From: an uncultured Bacteroidales bacterium
GTDB taxonomy: Bacteria; Bacteroidota; Bacteroidia; Bacteroidales; UBA932
DNA length: 64,000 nt
Assembly: GCA_947302175.1 (NCBI GenBank)
Contig: CAMYVB010000001.1
Coordinates: 154,397-218,396 of the forward strand
Direction of reading: 5' to 3'
In this document: positions 23,374 through 32,503 of the stretch, piece after piece
Position numbering within the stretch: the stretch's first letter is position 1
How the letters are laid out: each line of letters opens with the position of its first letter
Notes under the pieces: generated by a model
What the model was told of the DNA's origin: nothing
Databases searched by the model: none
The model's input: only the letters and a program-made list of their open reading frames with translations
Translations under genes and position numbers: made by a program

Positions 23374-23405
23374 AATATTTCCCGCTTTTGAGTATCTTTG
23401 ACGCT

Positions 23406-24281
23406 ATGACAAAATACTACCAGGTGGCCCTCCACCGCTTCGCCCTTTCCATGCCTTCATCCTCCCCTTTGTGGATGATGGCGTCCCAATACAATCCTTT
23501 CGAAATACCCGAGGCCGAGGATGTTATTTTCTCCCTCGAGATAGTCCCGGAGTATAAGGAGGTGGAAAAGGAGCCCGTGTACACCGAACCACCCTCGGAG
23601 CCTGACCAGACTCGCATAGAAATATACAAGATTGCCTCGGGATGGCGCTTCGAGGCGGCTCCTTCTGCCCGCTCCCGCCGCTGCTGCGTCCTGGACACTA
23701 CTGAAGATTTTTCCAAGGCCACCCTCTGGATGGAGCCTGAAAGGCGCACCGCCCTTTTCTCGCTCAACAATGCCCTTATGGTCCTTTACGCCTTCCGCAC
23801 CGCCGGCATGGGCACCCTTGAGATGCACTCCTCCGTAGTCATGAGAGACGGCAAGGCCTATATGTTCCTTGGCAAGAGCGGCACCGGCAAGAGCACCCAC
23901 AGCCGCCAGTGGCTGGAGACCTTCCCCGGCACCGAGCTTCTCAACGACGACAACCCCATACTCAGGGTCTTCCCCGACGGGTCTGTCATTGTGTACGGCT
24001 CCCCCTGGAGCGGCAAGACCCCCTGTTACCGCAACCTTTCCGCCCCCGTGGGCGCAATAGTTCGCATACGCCAGTGCCCTGAGAACAAGGCTGAGCGCAT
24101 GTCCGTGGTTCAGGCATACGCTTCCCTGTATTCCTCCTGCTCGGGACTAAAGTTCCATAAGGAGATGGCCGACGGCCTGCATGCCGCCCTCGAAGCCGCA
24201 GCCACCCGCGTCCCCTGTTTCGTCCTTGACTGCCGTCCCGACCACGAAGCCGCAGAAGTTTGTTACCAAGCCGTGAAATGA
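23406..24281 (+). CDS. HPr kinase/phosphorylase-like P-loop kinase of an exporter cassette
   Basis: Walker A FLGKSGTGKST, LLNDDNPILRVFPDGSVIVYGSPWSGK. Start 23406 preferred: the track start 23367 lies upstream of the -7 box TATCTTTG (23393-23400). Confidence 0.75.
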   Translation: MTKYYQVALHRFALSMPSSSPLWMMASQYNPFEIPEAEDVIFSLEIVPEYKEVEKEPVYTEPPSEPDQTRIEIYKIASGWRFEAAPSARSRRCCVLDTTEDFSKATLWMEPERRTALFSLNNALMVLYAFRTAGMGTLEMHSSVVMRDGKAYMFLGKSGTGKSTHSRQWLETFPGTELLNDDNPILRVFPDGSVIVYGSPWSGKTPCYRNLSAPVGAIVRIRQCPENKAERMSVVQAYASLYSSCSGLKFHKEMADGLHAALEAAATRVPCFVLDCRPDHEAAEVCYQAVK

Positions 24282-24706
24282 AGACCCTGTCCGTCCCCAA
24301 CGATGTCCTGGCCTCGATGGCTGACGAATACCTTTCCAAAGGGAAGGAGGCCGTTCTGCGCGTCAAGGGCAGGAGCATGCGTCCCTTCCTCAGGGACGAA
24401 ATAGACAGCGTGCGTCTCGTTAAAAAGGACACAGTGGAGGTCGGAGACATGGTTTTTGCGCGCATAGGCGGTTCCCGCTTTGTGCTTCACCGGGTGATAG
24501 GGGTCGAGGGCGAGAGTCTCACCCTCATGGGAGACGGCAATATCAGGGGCACTGAGAACTGCCTTAAGGGCGACGTGCTCGGCACCGTGGTTGAAATCCT
24601 GCCTCCCGACGGCAGGGGCCACGCTCCCGGCAACGGACGCTGGTGGCGCATGCTGCTCCCGCTTAGGCGTTATATATTGTTCATTCTCAAATTTTTCGGA
24701 AGATGA
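24278..24706 (+). CDS. S24/S26-family signal-peptidase-like protein (Ser-His type)
   Basis: KGRSMRPFLRDEIDSV, VGDMVFARIGGSRFVLHRVIGVEGESLTLMGDGN; ATGA overlaps on both sides. Confidence 0.8.
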   Translation: MKTLSVPNDVLASMADEYLSKGKEAVLRVKGRSMRPFLRDEIDSVRLVKKDTVEVGDMVFARIGGSRFVLHRVIGVEGESLTLMGDGNIRGTENCLKGDVLGTVVEILPPDGRGHAPGNGRWWRMLLPLRRYILFILKFFGR

Positions 24707-24972
24707 AGATTGCCGAAGGATTCGTCCTGCGCACATTGGGCAAGGACCATATCGTAGTGGGCGAGGGTCTCGCCCAGGTCAATTTCAACAAGATGGTGTC
24801 CCTCAACGCCAGCGCCGCTTTCCTGTGGAAGGAAGTCGAGGGTAAAGAGTTTACGACTGAGCAGCTCGCCGACCTGCTCGTATCAAAGTACGAGGTGGCG
24901 AGGGAAGTGGCCTTGAAGGACGCCGCCGCCCTCGTGGACAAACTGCTCGAGGCAGGAATACTGGAGGCTTAG
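24703..24972 (+). CDS. PqqD-family protein (RRE-like fold)
   Basis: VNFNKMVSLNASAAFLWKEVEGKEFTTEQLADLLVSKYEVAREVALKDAAALVDKLLEAGIL. Confidence 0.82.
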   Translation: MKIAEGFVLRTLGKDHIVVGEGLAQVNFNKMVSLNASAAFLWKEVEGKEFTTEQLADLLVSKYEVAREVALKDAAALVDKLLEAGILEA

Positions 24973-24979
24973 CGCTGAT

Positions 24980-26611
24980 ATGAAGGATTTCCGCACATGC
25001 ATGAAGGGTCTGCACGCCCTGGTCCGCCCCATCCGGGGAAGGATTGCGCTCTCCGTGATCCTGGGCCTGGTGAGGGTAGCCGCTTCGCTCACGTTCGTGT
25101 GGCTGTGCAAGGTCCTCGTCGATATCGCCTGCGGCCAGAGCGACCGCCCGCTTGGCACCTTCACCCTGCTCCTTGTGCTCGTCATGCTCGTCCAGCTGGG
25201 CGCCAGGGTGGCCTACAATTATTGGGAAGGCCTGATTGACGTCAAGACTCGCCGGGAAGTGCGCAAAAGCCTCTTTAACAGTATTATGCGCAGTTCGTGG
25301 AACGGAGGTGACAAGTTCCATAGCGGCGATGCCGTGAACCGTCTGCAGGAGGACCTGCGCATCGTGCTCGACCTCCTGTGCAGCAGGCTCCCCGACGCCA
25401 TCATAACCTCCTGCCAGCTCCTGGCAGCCTCGTTCTTCCTTTTGAAGCTCTCGCCCAGCCTGGTTTGGGTGCTCCTTGTACTCATGGCAGTGGCAGTCTT
25501 AGGCAGCAAATTGTATTTTGGCCGCCTTCGCCGCCTCACGGCGAGCATACGCGCAAAAGACAGCGAGATTCAGAGCTACATGCAGGAAAACCTGCTGCAT
25601 CGCCCGTTGGTGTTAACTCTCTTCGGCGCCGACAAGGTCGTCGACAGCCTCGATGGTCTGCAAAAGGAATATACCGCTTTCAACGTTTCCCGCCTTGGCT
25701 ACAACGCCGTTGCCAGGGCATTCATGGGCTTCGGCTTCATGGGAGGCTATGCCGCTGCGTTCCTATGGGGCGTGTACGGTATACACAGCGGCGCCGTCAC
25801 TTTCGGCATGATGACCGCCTTCCTGCAGCTGGTGGGCCAGGTCCAGCGCCCCATTGCCGACATGAGCCGCCACATACCCGCCTTCATCAACTCCCTCACT
25901 TCCGTCGAAAGGCTCATGGAGATTAATGAGCTCCCCCGCGAGAAGGACGGTCCCGACGATAGTTTCGACACCGCTCCCGGCATAAGGGTAAGCGGCCTTG
26001 GTTTCACCTATCCCGACGGTGTGAGACCGGTCATCAGCGGTCTTAGCTACGACTTCCGTCCAGGCACCACGACTGTCATCACCGGCCGCACGGGCGCGGG
26101 CAAGAGCACGCTCGTCAAAATTATGCTGGGCCTTATGGACCCTTCGGAAGGGACGGTCGAAATATACGACGACACCCGCAGCAGCACCGTCTCAGCCCTA
26201 ACGCGCTGCAACTTCCTCTATGTTCCCCAGGGCAACAGCCTTATGAGCGGCACCATACGCGAAAACCTCCTCCTTGCCGACCCCGATGCGGACGAGGAAA
26301 GCATGAAACGCGCGCTGCACATCGCTGCGGCAGATTTCGTCTTCTCTCTGCCCGATGGGCTCAATACCCCCTGCCGCGAAGCCGGCGGAGGCCTTAGCGA
26401 AGGCCAGGCCCAGCGCATAGCCATAGCCCGCGCCCTTCTTCGCAAGGGCGGCGTACTGATACTCGACGAAGCCAGCTCCGCGCTCGACTCCGACACTGAA
26501 ATCCAGCTTCTAGACAATCTTGCAGAGGCATTCAAGGGCAAAAAGACCATAGTTTTCATCTCCCACCGCGACGCCGTGTCACGCTACGCGGACGGCTCGC
26601 TCCAATTCTGA
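24980..26611 (+). CDS. ABC transporter, fused permease and ATPase (exporter type, no C39 domain)
   Basis: Six-TM N-terminus, GRTGAGKST Walker A, LSEGQAQRIAIARALL signature, GVLILDEASSALD Walker B. Confidence 0.93.
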   Translation: MKDFRTCMKGLHALVRPIRGRIALSVILGLVRVAASLTFVWLCKVLVDIACGQSDRPLGTFTLLLVLVMLVQLGARVAYNYWEGLIDVKTRREVRKSLFNSIMRSSWNGGDKFHSGDAVNRLQEDLRIVLDLLCSRLPDAIITSCQLLAASFFLLKLSPSLVWVLLVLMAVAVLGSKLYFGRLRRLTASIRAKDSEIQSYMQENLLHRPLVLTLFGADKVVDSLDGLQKEYTAFNVSRLGYNAVARAFMGFGFMGGYAAAFLWGVYGIHSGAVTFGMMTAFLQLVGQVQRPIADMSRHIPAFINSLTSVERLMEINELPREKDGPDDSFDTAPGIRVSGLGFTYPDGVRPVISGLSYDFRPGTTTVITGRTGAGKSTLVKIMLGLMDPSEGTVEIYDDTRSSTVSALTRCNFLYVPQGNSLMSGTIRENLLLADPDADEESMKRALHIAAADFVFSLPDGLNTPCREAGGGLSEGQAQRIAIARALLRKGGVLILDEASSALDSDTEIQLLDNLAEAFKGKKTIVFISHRDAVSRYADGSLQF

Positions 26612-26615
26612 AGCC

Positions 26616-29444
26616 ATGGTCCCATTCCTAAAGCAGGTGGCCTCCCGCTACTTCGACGCTGATTTGGGAGGCGAAGATATTTGTTTCATACTGCCAAACA
26701 GGCGGTCAGTCAAGTTTTTTGAAAAGTATTGGGCATCCCTTGCCTCCGAGCGCAGGCGCCCGTCCAGGATGCCGCTTGTTTTTACCATCAGCGATTTTTT
26801 CTGCCGCATTTCCGGTAGGGTGGCAAGCGACAGGACCCACCTGCTACTCATACTCTATGAGTGCTACAAGCGTTTAGGAGCGGGCAAAGAGAGTCTCGAC
26901 GATTTCATTTTCTGGGGAGACGTCCTGCTTTCGGACTTCGACGACACCGACAAATACATGGCCGATCCCGCGAAACTGTTCACCAACGTGTCAGATTTCA
27001 AGGGCATGCAGGACAAATTCGAATACCTTTCGGAAGGGCAGAGGGAGGCCATGGAGCGTTTCATGTCCCATTTCCGCACTCCCGGGGAGGATAAGCCGGT
27101 TAAACAGAGTTTCCTGAGCATATGGGAAGTACTTCTTCCCCTGTATAATGATTTCCGCTCCGAGCTTGACTCCCGAGGTCTTGCATACGAAGGCATGATT
27201 TTCCGCTCAGTAGCTGAAGAGATTGCCCAAAGGCCCGTCTCGGACATGCTCGGGGCCGTTTTCCCCGGCACTGGGCTCTATGTCTTCGCCGGACTGAACG
27301 CCCTTAGCGCGTGCGAAGAAAAGCTTCTCTCAAGGATGAGGGATGCGGGCCTGGCGCGTTTCTGCTGGGATTTTTCTTCGGATATGATACGCGATCCCCT
27401 CAACAGGGCATCCCACTTCATGTGGGACAACGTGCGCAGGTTCCCCCAGGATTTCCGTCCCGACCCTGACGGCACTCCCGTGCCGAAAGTGAGCGTTATC
27501 AGCGTCCCTTCCTCGGTCGGTCAGGCCAAGCAGCTTCCCCGCATATTTGCCCAAAGGAGTCCCGGCTTGGAAACGGCCGTGGTGCTTCCGGACGAAAACC
27601 TGCTTCTCAGCGTTCTTAATTCCATACCTCCGGAGGTAAAGGCCGTCAACGTGACCATGGGATACTCCATGCGCCTGAGCCAGCTCTTCGCCCTCCTTTC
27701 GGAAGTGGCCGCCATGCAGCTGCATCTAAGGCAGCGCCCTGACGGATACCATTTCTACCACAAGCAGGTCTATGCCATCTTCTCGAACAGCCTTTTCAGG
27801 AGCGCTGCGTCAAGCCCGGAGGAAAAGGAGTTCGTCGCTCGCATAAAAGCCGGTGCGCGCTACTATATCCCCGAGTCCGAGCTAAGGATGGAGGGAATAT
27901 CGGGCAAGATTTTCAGGCCTGTCGTGGAGGACCCTTCCATCGAGTCCCCGGAGGTGATAAGGAAGATAACGGAGTATCTTTCCGATATAGTTTCGTCCAT
28001 TGCAATTGCAATAAAAGAAGATACTTCGCTTACCCTCGAGCTGGACTTTGCCAAGGAATACTACCTTATCCTGAGGCGCCTTTCCGCGTACGAGCTTCCC
28101 TTGAGGCCCGCGACCTTCTTCCGTATGCTGGACCGGCTTGCAGGTTCCCTTTCGGTACCCTTCAGGGGTGAGCCTCTCAAGGGCCTGCAAATTATGGGAC
28201 CGCTTGAAACCCGCGCCCTCGACTTTGAAAGGGTTATCATACTTTCCTGCAACGAAGGCACCTACCCTTCACGCTCCTTCAAGGCGTCGTTCATCCCGCC
28301 CGAGCTTCGCCGCGCTTTCGGCCTTCCCAATTCCGACCAGCGCGATGCCATAGAAAGCTATTACTTCTACAGGCTCATACAGAGGGCCTCGGAAGTCTTC
28401 CTATTGTACGATTCCAGGACAGAAGGGCTCAAATCGGGTGAGGAGAGCCGCTACATAAGGCAGCTCCAGCTGCATTTCGGGCTCGATGTCTCCAGGCAGG
28501 AAGCCAAGGCTTTCCCCTCCCTTCCAAAGGCTCCCGCCGACATAGCCAAGACTGAGGCGGACGTGGAGAAGATTCGGGCCATGGAATTTTCGCCTTCGGC
28601 GCTCAGGAATTATCTCAGGTGCCAGGTGTCCTTCTACTACTCCCGTGTCCTTGGTCTCAAGGCGGGCGACGAAGTGACCGAATCGCTCGACAGCAGCATG
28701 ACCGGAAATGTCTACCATGCCGCCATGCAAAAGCTTTACAGCGAGGCCCGGGGCACGCTGACCCGCGAGTACCTGCGTCAGACCAGGCGCGACAGGCAGC
28801 GCATAAAATCCCTCGTTCGCTCTCTCATCATGAAGGAGCTCGGCACCGCCGAAGTCTCCGGCAGGAACCTCGTTTTCGAGGAGATGGTGGTGCGTTACGT
28901 GGAAAAGACTCTGGAGCGTGACCTGGAGCTTCTTGAAAAATGGGGGACGGATTCCTTGCAAATTCTTGGCCTCGAGCGTGAAATGCGCTGGGAGTCAGGC
29001 CCCTATCGCTTCAAAGGCACGATTGACAGGCTTGATTCCATCGCTCCGGGCCGGGTGCGCATCGTGGACTACAAGACCGGAATGGTGGAAGACAAGGACT
29101 TAAGAATCGATGATACCAATGCTTCGAAGGTCATAGAGAGTCTCTTTGCCGAAGAAAACGACAAACGCCCCGACATAGCCCTTCAGTTGTTCCTCTATGA
29201 CAAATTCGTCTCGTCAGACGGGGAGTTTGCCGGGATGCGGCTCTTCAACTCCATTTACCAGCCGGCAAAGATGTTCGCGGAGCCTCCCGCGACTGTCGCC
29301 GTTAGCGAGGTGTTCTGCAATATGGCTGAGGAAAGGCTTTTCTCCATGCTGGAGAAGATTTCTGATATCAGCGTTCCTTTCCGCCACACCGCGAATCAGA
29401 AGGCATGCGAGCACTGTGACTTTAAAACCATCTGCGGGCGATGA
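26616..29444 (+). CDS. AddB/RecB-family PD-(D/E)XK exonuclease
   Basis: FSPSALRNYLRCQVSFYY, FKGTIDRLD...IVDYKTG nuclease motif, C-terminal HTANQKACEHCDFKTICGR Fe-S-like Cys cluster. Confidence 0.88.
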   Translation: MVPFLKQVASRYFDADLGGEDICFILPNRRSVKFFEKYWASLASERRRPSRMPLVFTISDFFCRISGRVASDRTHLLLILYECYKRLGAGKESLDDFIFWGDVLLSDFDDTDKYMADPAKLFTNVSDFKGMQDKFEYLSEGQREAMERFMSHFRTPGEDKPVKQSFLSIWEVLLPLYNDFRSELDSRGLAYEGMIFRSVAEEIAQRPVSDMLGAVFPGTGLYVFAGLNALSACEEKLLSRMRDAGLARFCWDFSSDMIRDPLNRASHFMWDNVRRFPQDFRPDPDGTPVPKVSVISVPSSVGQAKQLPRIFAQRSPGLETAVVLPDENLLLSVLNSIPPEVKAVNVTMGYSMRLSQLFALLSEVAAMQLHLRQRPDGYHFYHKQVYAIFSNSLFRSAASSPEEKEFVARIKAGARYYIPESELRMEGISGKIFRPVVEDPSIESPEVIRKITEYLSDIVSSIAIAIKEDTSLTLELDFAKEYYLILRRLSAYELPLRPATFFRMLDRLAGSLSVPFRGEPLKGLQIMGPLETRALDFERVIILSCNEGTYPSRSFKASFIPPELRRAFGLPNSDQRDAIESYYFYRLIQRASEVFLLYDSRTEGLKSGEESRYIRQLQLHFGLDVSRQEAKAFPSLPKAPADIAKTEADVEKIRAMEFSPSALRNYLRCQVSFYYSRVLGLKAGDEVTESLDSSMTGNVYHAAMQKLYSEARGTLTREYLRQTRRDRQRIKSLVRSLIMKELGTAEVSGRNLVFEEMVVRYVEKTLERDLELLEKWGTDSLQILGLEREMRWESGPYRFKGTIDRLDSIAPGRVRIVDYKTGMVEDKDLRIDDTNASKVIESLFAEENDKRPDIALQLFLYDKFVSSDGEFAGMRLFNSIYQPAKMFAEPPATVAVSEVFCNMAEERLFSMLEKISDISVPFRHTANQKACEHCDFKTICGR

Positions 29445-32400
29445 TACGGATAATGAAGGCCTCAGCCGGCTCAGGCAAGACATTCAAGCTGGCCCAGACG
29501 TATCTGCGCGTGCTTCTCTCCTCCAATGAGAGTTACGCCTTCCGCAGCATCCTTGCCGTTACCTTCACCAACAAGGCCACTGCCGAAATGAAGGGGCGCA
29601 TACTAGAGGAGCTCTACAAACTCGCAGTTTCTCCGGAGAAGTCGGACTATTTCGCTGAATTCGTGCCTTCGCTCTTCCCCGACGCCCATGCGTTGAAGGC
29701 AAAGGCCTCCAAGACGCTTACCGAGCTGCTCCACGACTATGGCTCGTTCAGCGTCAGCACCATAGACCGTTTCTTCCAGCAGGCCCTGAGGGCGTTTGCA
29801 AGGGAAGCCGGGCAGTTTGCCGCATACCAGATAGAGCTGGACAAGCCTTCCCTAGTCCACGAAGCCGTCGATTCCCTGCTAGATTCCCTGTCCGAAGACG
29901 ATTCTGAAATACTCGACTGGCTCACGGATTCGCTTTCAGTAAGTATGGACAAGGGCTCGCGTCCCGATTTCGAGGGGCGTCTCTATGAAATGGCTGAAAA
30001 GCTTTTCAGCACCGAGCGTCAGGATGTCATGGAGAGACTGGGCATCAAGGGTGAAGGGCAGTTCTCGCGTGAATCGCTGAAAGTAATAAGCGCCCGTTGC
30101 AGGGATGTTATTTCCGACTACGAAAAGGCAGTGCGTGACTGCGCGAAGGAGTGTCTCGATATTATTAGCGCCGCCGGCCTTTCCACGAGCGATTTCTTCC
30201 GCTCCTTCATGGAGAAGTTGCCTCACTTCGTGTATTTCCCCCTCCCTCCTTCGCCTCCCGAGCCCACGCCGGCCTTCCTCGCAAGGGCGAAGGATCCCGA
30301 CGGCTGGTTCTCCAAGGCTGCAGCGCCGAAATGCCTCCCTCTTGTGGAAGAAAGCCTGTCTCCTGCTCTCAGCCGCTTCTGCTATCTTTTTGAGGAAGGC
30401 AGAAAATTGTCTTCCAGCGCCGCGCTTATCCTTTCCCAGATTCACGGCCTTGCAGTTTCCTCGGAACTGACCCGGGAATTCGAGGGCCTTCTCAAGGAAA
30501 AGAACGTTCTCAGCCTGGACGACAGCAACGCCATCCTGAGACGCATGATCGATGGCAGCGACGCGCCTTTCGTATATGAAAAGATGGGCGTGAGGTACCG
30601 CCATTTCCTTCTTGACGAGTTCCAGGACACCTCGATGGTGCAGTGGGAAAACTTCCTTCCCCTTCTCAAGGAGAGCGATTCCACGGGAGGGAGCAATCTC
30701 GTCGTAGGTGACGTCAAACAGAGCATTTATCGCTGGCGGGACTCCCGCTGGGACCTTCTCGATAGCGGAGTTCAGCGCGACTTCCCCCTCTCGGAAATAG
30801 TTTCTCTTACGGAGAACTGGCGCAGCAGCCGTGCGGTAGTTGAGTTCAACAACGATTTTTTCAGCCACGCAGCTGCCCTTCTCGATCCCAGGCTCGATGG
30901 GGCGTCGTTCTCGATAAGCGACATTTACTCTGACGTTGAGCAGACTCCATGTGCCGATGAAGCGCAGGAAGGCTGCGTCAGGGTGAATTTCTGCTCTGAC
31001 AAGGATGAGCAGATGGAAAAAGTTATTGAGAGCATTTCCCGGGCGCGTCAGGCAGGCGCTCTCTGGAGCGATATAGCGGTGCTCGTAAGGACCAACCTCA
31101 TAGGCGGAAGGGTGGCCCAGGCCCTGCTTCAAGCCGAAATACCCGTCCTTTCCGACGATTCTCTCGACCTAAAGGGCTCAGTCACCGTGAGGAGGGTGGT
31201 AGGCCTTATGGAAAGCTTCGAAAATCCCGACGACCGGATAAGCTCCTACATCGCCTCTATGACGGGCATGAGCTTCCCCGACTGCTTCCATTCGCTTCCC
31301 GACCTTTGCGAGAGCCTCCTGCGTTCGCTAAGGGACGCCGATTCCTCACTTTTCGAGTCCGAGACCCTCTACATACAGTCCTTCATGGACACCCTTCTGG
31401 ACTGGACTTCGAGGAACGGCAACTCCATTTCCCGTTTCCTGTCATGGTGGAAGGATGCAAAGGTTAAGCTCAGCTCTCCGGCCGGGGCGGATGCGGTGCG
31501 CGTAATAACAATCCATAAGTCCAAGGGACTGGAGTTCCCCCATGTCATATATCCTTTCGCAGAAGCTGAAAGCCTCACGCCTTCCACTAAGCATCCGCCT
31601 TTCCACTGGTGCATCCCCGACGAGTCCTTAGGCGCCATTCCGGAGGCTTCGGAGACTGCCTTCCCCATCACTATGACAGGCAAGGCCGCCAATACCTGCT
31701 TCTCCAGGGACTATGCCGACGAACGTAACCTCTGCCTCGTAGATGCTCTGAACGCCTCTTACGTCGCTCTGACGAGGGCGCAAAAGAGTCTCCATGTCAT
31801 TGCAGAGAGACCTTCCGACCCGGTCATCTCTGCCATCGATAAAGGCGACGTGTCCAAATTGTCCACTCTCTCCCATCTGCTTATGGAATACACAGGCGAG
31901 GATGAATATGTTTCCGGCGAACCCTACGACTTTTCGCGCATGAAAAGGAAAGACAAGAAGGCTCCGGAAGCGGTCCCCTCGTCATATCCTTCCTATCCTG
32001 CAAGCGGCGGAGTTGCCAAGGAAGACAGTGAATCATACGACTTCTTCTCTGAAGACGGCCTCGCGGGCGCCGGAGCATCCCCCCGTCTTTCCGGCATAGC
32101 CTTGCATGAAATTCTGTCCCGGGTGGATATGGAAGGCGGTCTGGAGCGTGCAGTCTCCAGAAGCGTCGAAAAGGCTATCCTCTCTCCCGAGGAAGGGAAG
32201 AAGGCTTATGAGCTTCTGTCCCGTGCCCTGTCTTCGCCCGAAGTGAGCGAGTGGTTCAACCCGGCGTACAAGGCCGATACTGAAAGGACGCTCATAGACG
32301 CCCAAGGGGAGTGCCACATTCCCGACAGGGTGGTACGCACCCCTTCTTCCACCACAGTCATAGACTATAAGTTCGGAGAGCCGAAGCCCTCTTATCACCG

Positions 32401-32503
32401 TCAGGTAAGGCGTTATATGGAGATACTGCGCCAGCTCGGATGCGTGAAGGTATCGGGCTATCTTTGGTATGTCAGGACGGGAGAAATAGAGAAAGTAGAA
32501 TAA
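29441..32503 (+). CDS. UvrD/AddA-like helicase-nuclease (exodeoxyribonuclease V beta-like)
   Basis: KASAGSGKTFKLA Walker A, FLLDEFQDTSMVQW, VGDVKQSIYRWRDS, ITIHKSKGLEFPHVI, C-terminal TTVIDYKFGEPKPSYHRQVRRYMEIL. Confidence 0.93.
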   Translation: MIRIMKASAGSGKTFKLAQTYLRVLLSSNESYAFRSILAVTFTNKATAEMKGRILEELYKLAVSPEKSDYFAEFVPSLFPDAHALKAKASKTLTELLHDYGSFSVSTIDRFFQQALRAFAREAGQFAAYQIELDKPSLVHEAVDSLLDSLSEDDSEILDWLTDSLSVSMDKGSRPDFEGRLYEMAEKLFSTERQDVMERLGIKGEGQFSRESLKVISARCRDVISDYEKAVRDCAKECLDIISAAGLSTSDFFRSFMEKLPHFVYFPLPPSPPEPTPAFLARAKDPDGWFSKAAAPKCLPLVEESLSPALSRFCYLFEEGRKLSSSAALILSQIHGLAVSSELTREFEGLLKEKNVLSLDDSNAILRRMIDGSDAPFVYEKMGVRYRHFLLDEFQDTSMVQWENFLPLLKESDSTGGSNLVVGDVKQSIYRWRDSRWDLLDSGVQRDFPLSEIVSLTENWRSSRAVVEFNNDFFSHAAALLDPRLDGASFSISDIYSDVEQTPCADEAQEGCVRVNFCSDKDEQMEKVIESISRARQAGALWSDIAVLVRTNLIGGRVAQALLQAEIPVLSDDSLDLKGSVTVRRVVGLMESFENPDDRISSYIASMTGMSFPDCFHSLPDLCESLLRSLRDADSSLFESETLYIQSFMDTLLDWTSRNGNSISRFLSWWKDAKVKLSSPAGADAVRVITIHKSKGLEFPHVIYPFAEAESLTPSTKHPPFHWCIPDESLGAIPEASETAFPITMTGKAANTCFSRDYADERNLCLVDALNASYVALTRAQKSLHVIAERPSDPVISAIDKGDVSKLSTLSHLLMEYTGEDEYVSGEPYDFSRMKRKDKKAPEAVPSSYPSYPASGGVAKEDSESYDFFSEDGLAGAGASPRLSGIALHEILSRVDMEGGLERAVSRSVEKAILSPEEGKKAYELLSRALSSPEVSEWFNPAYKADTERTLIDAQGECHIPDRVVRTPSSTTVIDYKFGEPKPSYHRQVRRYMEILRQLGCVKVSGYLWYVRTGEIEKVE

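Follow-up and report, generated by a model that had tools for sequence, protein, structure and literature searches.

Previously, lasso peptide leaders of the form YxxPxL have been shown to bind a PqqD-type B1 protein, and an HprK-like kinase phosphorylates a serine of the precursor in a reaction that B1 speeds (PMC10368454). In pseudomycoidin, a nucleotidyltransferase, N, attaches hexoses to this phosphate group (PMC8498205). The SynChlorMet (ScmC/ScmD) and HPr-rel-A systems of NCBIfam likewise pair an HprK-related with a PqqD-related protein. The present study concerns a cassette of related genes in a 64,000-nucleotide stretch of DNA from an uncultured Bacteroidales bacterium (hereafter the window). 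In our reading, which we hold at a probability of about two in three, the cassette is a RiPP-like machine that matures and exports, in common, scattered small peptides (PEPs) encoded upstream of large lipoproteins.

Results

Organization of the cassette

A sequence-only reading had described four tightly coupled genes, and rereading the window gave the same coordinates.

23406..24281, + strand: KIN, an HprK/PEPCK-fold protein kinase-like protein (fold model, PDB fold search, weak family matches)
24278..24706, + strand: S24/S26-type peptidase of the Ser-His-Asp type, S26 in the gene orders below (Pfam, invariant triad, fold model)
24703..24972, + strand: stand-alone PqqD-type RRE, leader-binding (PF05402; PDB match, the lasso RRE TfuB1)
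24980..26611, + strand: ABC exporter with membrane and ATPase domains, without a peptidase domain (Pfam/NCBIfam)

Also as that reading had it, ATGA overlaps join KIN to the peptidase (24278-24281) and the peptidase to PqqD (24703-24706), PqqD and ABC are 7 nt apart, and 101 bp separate KIN from the rubrerythrin gene. A longer KIN frame from ATG 23367 is possible; the start was assigned to ATG 23406 because homologues begin there. The octamer TATCTTTG at 23392-23399 resembles the Bacteroidetes -7 box TAnnTTTG and ends about 6 nt before this ATG; therefore, the mRNA might be nearly leaderless.

The neighbors are ordinary genes upstream (alanine racemase, rubrerythrin) and, downstream of ABC, genes for a PD-(D/E)XK protein and a UvrD-like helicase (AddB/AddA-like), DUF4290, a protein that we take by eye from the window sequence to be FtsK-like, and LolA. 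The AddB/AddA-like genes (26616-32503) begin 5 nt after the ABC gene. By position only, the cassette may be cotranscribed with these DNA-repair genes; most relatives lack the adjacency. No radical SAM gene adjoins the cassette, unlike in SynChlorMet.

The four proteins

KIN carries a P-loop, GKSGTGKST (Lys162, codon 23889-23891), together with invariant NDD, GSPWSGK, and His141. Its family matches in Pfam/NCBIfam are weak (ScmC TIGR04249, 3e-6; HprK_rel_A, 2e-3) and far below the NCBIfam curated cut-offs (26.9 against 125 bits and 17.2 against 200, respectively). Since a search of the KIN profile against PDB sequences returned nothing useful, folds were compared instead. The predicted fold (pLDDT 94.5) retrieved only PEPCK and HprK/P among the top 50 PDB matches, which agrees with the earlier label of an HPrK-like kinase. 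KIN shares with HPr kinase/phosphorylase and PEPCK the fold and the P-loop/DD active-site region; it differs from them in its low identity (about 11-15%), an extra N-terminal region of about 140 residues, and the lack of an HPr gene nearby. The HprK/PEPCK fold, P-loop, and DD motif are present as in the lasso kinase K.

The peptidase matches Peptidase_S24 (PF00717, 5e-6). A Ser-His rather than Ser-Lys dyad had been suggested for it; this can now be widened to a Ser-His-Asp triad, as Ser33 (24374-24376), His71 (24488-24490), and Asp86 (24533-24535) are invariant in sets of 21 and of 32 homologues. The model matches the LexA, UmuD, and SpsB folds in the PDB. The fold is that of SipW/Sec11-type signal peptidases (S26B) and of LexA/UmuD (S24), the Ser ... 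HR ... GDGN spacing is that of Ser-His-Asp signal peptidases, and weak sequence matches reach SpsB and SEC11A/C. In contrast to lysine-type signal peptidases and LexA, which are Ser-Lys enzymes, the cassette peptidase is of the Ser-His-Asp type; unlike S26B signal peptidases, it is a soluble protein of 142 aa. Sequence and model show a polar N-terminal helix (8-20) and no N-terminal membrane anchor, and the model ends in amphipathic helices (120-140).

PqqD matches PF05402 at 4e-16, and its sole PDB match is the lasso RRE TfuB1 (6jx3, E 0.04); it falls far below the ScmD curated cut-off (19.4 against 100). An orphan second paralogue lies among housekeeping genes of the window's genome (L060 8584-8853, G000:C19), with no PEP or cassette gene nearby, and genome G032 has a similar orphan (L047). 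The ABC protein combines ABC_membrane and ABC_tran (Pfam/NCBIfam).

Conservation of the cassette and a fifth gene

A scan of genome contigs found kinase relatives in at least 595 genome stretches. The best 80 of these loci are all from Bacteroidales-type MAGs, mostly uncultured gut Bacteroidales, and mostly hold cassette variants. Failure of the genes to co-occur in relatives had been named in the sequence-only reading as evidence against it; co-occurrence was found instead, with the exact order KIN-S26-PqqD-ABC in 38 of the best 80 loci and a variant in most others. Such counts are not due to chance. Across the Bacteroidales, hundreds of species carry the kinase together with its partners, with changing gene order. 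Same-genus relatives repeat KIN-S26-PqqD-ABC, often beside the same DUF4290/FtsK genes. Gene orders were read by profile searches, since antisense frames in the crude gene calls frequently masked S26 or PqqD. In the order sample, weak kinase matches (E 1e-8 to 1e-25) resemble other HprK-related systems, and the strong set was analyzed separately.

A fifth gene, absent from the earlier description but often found with the others, encodes a nucleotidyltransferase (NTase; NTP_transf_5, PF14907) and lies between PqqD and ABC in some genus relatives. Other families show PqqD-ABC-NTase-KIN-S26 and PqqD-NTase-ABC-KIN-S26. Because the five genes cluster in differing orders across families, these arrangements support KIN, S26, PqqD, NTase, and ABC being one functional unit. 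Most Cryptobacteroides cassettes lack NTase, which counts against a shared machine; the window's genome has a single NTase gene, on another contig. That gene (L065 6770-9965, G000:C30) adjoins a SIS-domain GmhA-like gene and a capsule-assembly-like gene, which we take by eye to be Wzi-like and which has no Pfam match. Besides, one Bacteroidales family encodes a conserved putative membrane protein of about 250 aa, unassigned to a family, between PqqD and KIN (L224 7788-8540; L226 8021-8761).

A dispersed peptide family

As the sequence-only reading had stated, the upstream region and the junctions hold no precursor ORF, nor did we find a leader-type ORF anywhere in the window. A small-ORF search uncovered the PEPs elsewhere in the genome. 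When intergenic small ORFs from about 110 loci were clustered, one meaningful group emerged, MKKMNKMYEAPKAEVVELNVNKDFM..., directly behind NTase in eight loci; with the profile searches included, PEPs follow NTase in 9 loci. The remaining small ORFs that recur around cassettes proved to be tRNA-like or spurious frames, or YidD-type or ribbon-helix-like housekeeping genes.

PEPs are ORFs of 40-70 aa with a leader K..Y-E-[AS]-P-x-x-E-V-V-E-V-x-x-E..hh.xS(G), for example MRKTIYEAPLAEVVETLPEQVIAS, and an acidic, Gly-rich, Cys-free tail. A leader HMM cleanly separates the family from noise. In 69 leaders, Tyr is found in 100%, Pro(+3) in 98%, Glu(+6) in 65%, Glu(+9) in 52%, and Glu(+13) in 63%, with hydrophobic residues at +7, +8, +10, +16, and +17; Ser at +18 to +20 likely marks the leader/tail junction. 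In the same 69 peptides, Gly, Asp, Glu, Ser, and Asn abound in the tails; an aromatic residue usually stands close to the C terminus, and Cys is almost absent. Seven PEPs queried against Pfam and NCBIfam matched no family in either. Profile and genome searches found dispersed copies, up to 15 per genome. In the window's own genome, they yielded three PEPs, to which a tandem fourth can be added; none lies in the window.

L146: PEP, MRKTIYEAPLAEVVETLPEQVIASSTGSTDDYNQPGGVWNW
L147: PEP, MLKKEHYSAPKAETLLLAAEEALLAVSGDIAPGQWTGGNDDWWDDDE
L148: two PEPs

Pairing of PEPs with lipoproteins

A lipobox protein starts -20 to +60 nt after 49 of 64 distinct PEPs, compared with 55 of 1174 background genes (4.7%; p 5e-45). 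The partners measure 300 to 2231 aa and typically start '...SC-K-E...TRT...W..GD.I'; their C-terminal parts vary (Endonuclease_NS, BspA LRR, GLUG, InlB B-repeats, fimbrillin-like, a weak FISUMP match). Judging from lipobox and domain types, they probably reside at the surface. The pairs occur in ordinary gene clusters as well as in EPS clusters. At L234 4858-9932 (G000:C13), two tandem PEPs precede a 315-aa and then a 1263-aa lipoprotein, the latter ending in a DNA/RNA non-specific endonuclease domain. At L248, three very similar PEPs (..KELYKSPSxKVI..ICTS..) alternate with lipoprotein genes, an arrangement that suggests that PEP-lipoprotein units were duplicated locally.

Association of PEPs with the kinase

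In a sample of 295 Bacteroidales genomes, all except the window's own at least 90% complete, leader PEPs (E<=0.01) were present in 14 of 21 strong-kinase genomes and 2 of 274 others (p 4e-17). Collapsing by genus, which was the only correction for kinship, left 12 of 16 against 2 of 161 (p 1e-13). PEP matches in kinase-negative genomes were no more than expected by chance. Counting against the link, 7 of the 21 strong-kinase genomes had no PEP at this threshold. In a phylum sample of 248 genomes, G340, which lies outside the order, was, besides the window's own genome, the sole strong-kinase genome and also the sole one with convincing PEPs.

A weaker association is seen among genomes of the genus (29 of 32 kinase-positive against 4 of 9 kinase-negative genomes, p 0.007), partly because assemblies are incomplete. 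The four kinase-negative genomes with PEPs, which also count against the link, are mostly incomplete assemblies. G032 (91% complete) is a real exception, with 15 PEPs and PqqD and no kinase or S26 found.

Some PEPs lie close to cassette genes. G340 has one run of genes for a Wzc-like protein, a PEP, a fimbrillin-like lipoprotein (Mfa_like_1), PqqD, and NTase; a second run of Wzc-like, PEP, lipoprotein, PqqD, and KIN; and a third, S26-PqqD-NTase-ABC-KIN, with polysaccharide-export genes. In G054 (L231), the kinase gene immediately follows a PEP, and in G266 (L217), a PEP lies inside the gene cluster. The placement of PEPs near cassettes of the KIN-S26-PqqD-NTase subclade may reflect a single evolutionary event.

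Discussion

The sequence-only reading had proposed a module for recognition, phosphorylation, processing, and export whose substrate is encoded elsewhere or is an ordinary cellular molecule. The module and the distant substrate are now well supported, whereas an ordinary cellular molecule has become unlikely; the substrate family and the lipoprotein pairing go beyond that reading. One cassette per genome would serve several substrates. By analogy with lasso systems, PqqD would recognize PEPs through the YxxP leader, the HprK-like kinase would phosphorylate a PEP Ser/Thr as lasso K does, and NTase, where present, would further decorate the phosphate as lasso N does. The Ser-His-Asp peptidase would then cut off the leader near the conserved hh.xS(G) junction, leaving a linear acidic peptide for the ABC protein to export. 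In the weakest step, the mature peptide and the lipoprotein encoded in the same operon might work together at the cell envelope.

The lipoprotein pairing could alternatively be read as the peptide serving lipoprotein translation or regulation. In its full form, this explanation makes PEPs cis-acting upstream ORFs that regulate the lipoprotein by translational coupling, unrelated to the cassette, with shared lineage behind the co-occurrence. The distance of about 5-25 nt from PEP stop to lipoprotein start in most pairs suits coupling, and so does the dispersal of PEPs far from the cassette. We consider it unlikely, however, as the leader is conserved at the amino-acid level across families (Y 100%, P 98%, E at +6/+9/+13), the PEP adjoining the kinase at L231 has no adjacent lipoprotein, PqqD, NTase, and KIN share the PEP operon in another order in G340, and co-occurrence persists when genomes are collapsed by genus, with about a dozen families represented.

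It is similarly improbable that the cassette acts on a polysaccharide pathway, in which the kinase, NTase, and ABC protein would modify and export a sugar or lipid-linked carrier, PqqD and S26 would tune EPS proteins, and the peptides would be secondary. Most cassettes, including that of the window, sit among housekeeping genes without an EPS gene, PqqD-type proteins are peptide binders, and PEPs co-occur with the cassette. What speaks for a polysaccharide role is the location of the G266 and G340 genes in EPS operons, which also encode Poly_export/SLBB and Wzc/GNVR proteins, the SIS (GmhA-like) gene beside the NTase of the window's own genome, and the ManC-like and UDP-sugar dehydrogenase-like neighbors of KIN in L041. 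A degenerate or split lasso cluster, with B2 and C elsewhere and a lasso peptide as product, would account for the B1, K, N, and D homologues and the YxxP leader, a set known from lasso clusters, but is very improbable, given that a B2/C-type gene recurs near none of the loci examined, the Gly/Asp-rich PEP tails do not show the fixed Gly1...Asp/Glu7-9 spacing, and a dedicated S26-type protease replaces B2.

Returning to a shared maturation machine for PEPs, the system is of the RiPP kind, and a plausible case can be made for a new class. Searches of the open-access full-text literature turned up no paper on such a cassette other than in lasso clusters, on the PEP family, or on the peptide-lipoprotein pairing. 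A more specific proposal, to which we give somewhat less than even odds, is a new RiPP-like class in which one cassette per genome matures a multi-copy set of peptides that are linear, acidic, phosphorylated, and possibly also glycosylated. Each of them would belong to one lipoprotein and would decorate, tether, or switch that surface protein. The lipoproteins served would be those encoded right behind each peptide, namely fimbrillin-like, LRR, nuclease, and other types.

An orphan cassette present in at least 595 genome stretches thus gains a concrete candidate substrate family that is open to bench testing. If the proposal is true, peptides decorated by kinases and nucleotidyltransferases reach beyond lasso peptides, and a signal-peptidase-like enzyme serves as a RiPP leader protease. 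Furthermore, peptide modification would be tied to envelope lipoproteins, through which gut Bacteroidales may contact the host and neighbors. Because the precursor genes are scattered, cluster-based genome mining would miss such a system.

Among described systems, the lasso clusters with K and N (paeninodin, pseudomycoidin, Bradymonas bsf) likewise combine a B1 RRE, K, N, D, and a precursor with a YxxP leader. The sequence-only reading had reported no transglutaminase-like or Asn-synthetase-like partner; indeed, neither a B2 nor a C gene of these types was found in the window neighborhood or among the recurrent neighbors of the 80 loci. With B2 and C absent locally, the cassette resembles part of the lasso pathway and is not a member of it. 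The present set corresponds to lasso B1, K, D, and sometimes N; C is missing, and an S24/S26-type protease stands where lasso clusters have B2. Also unlike in lasso clusters, there are several precursors, which are dispersed and each come with a lipoprotein partner.
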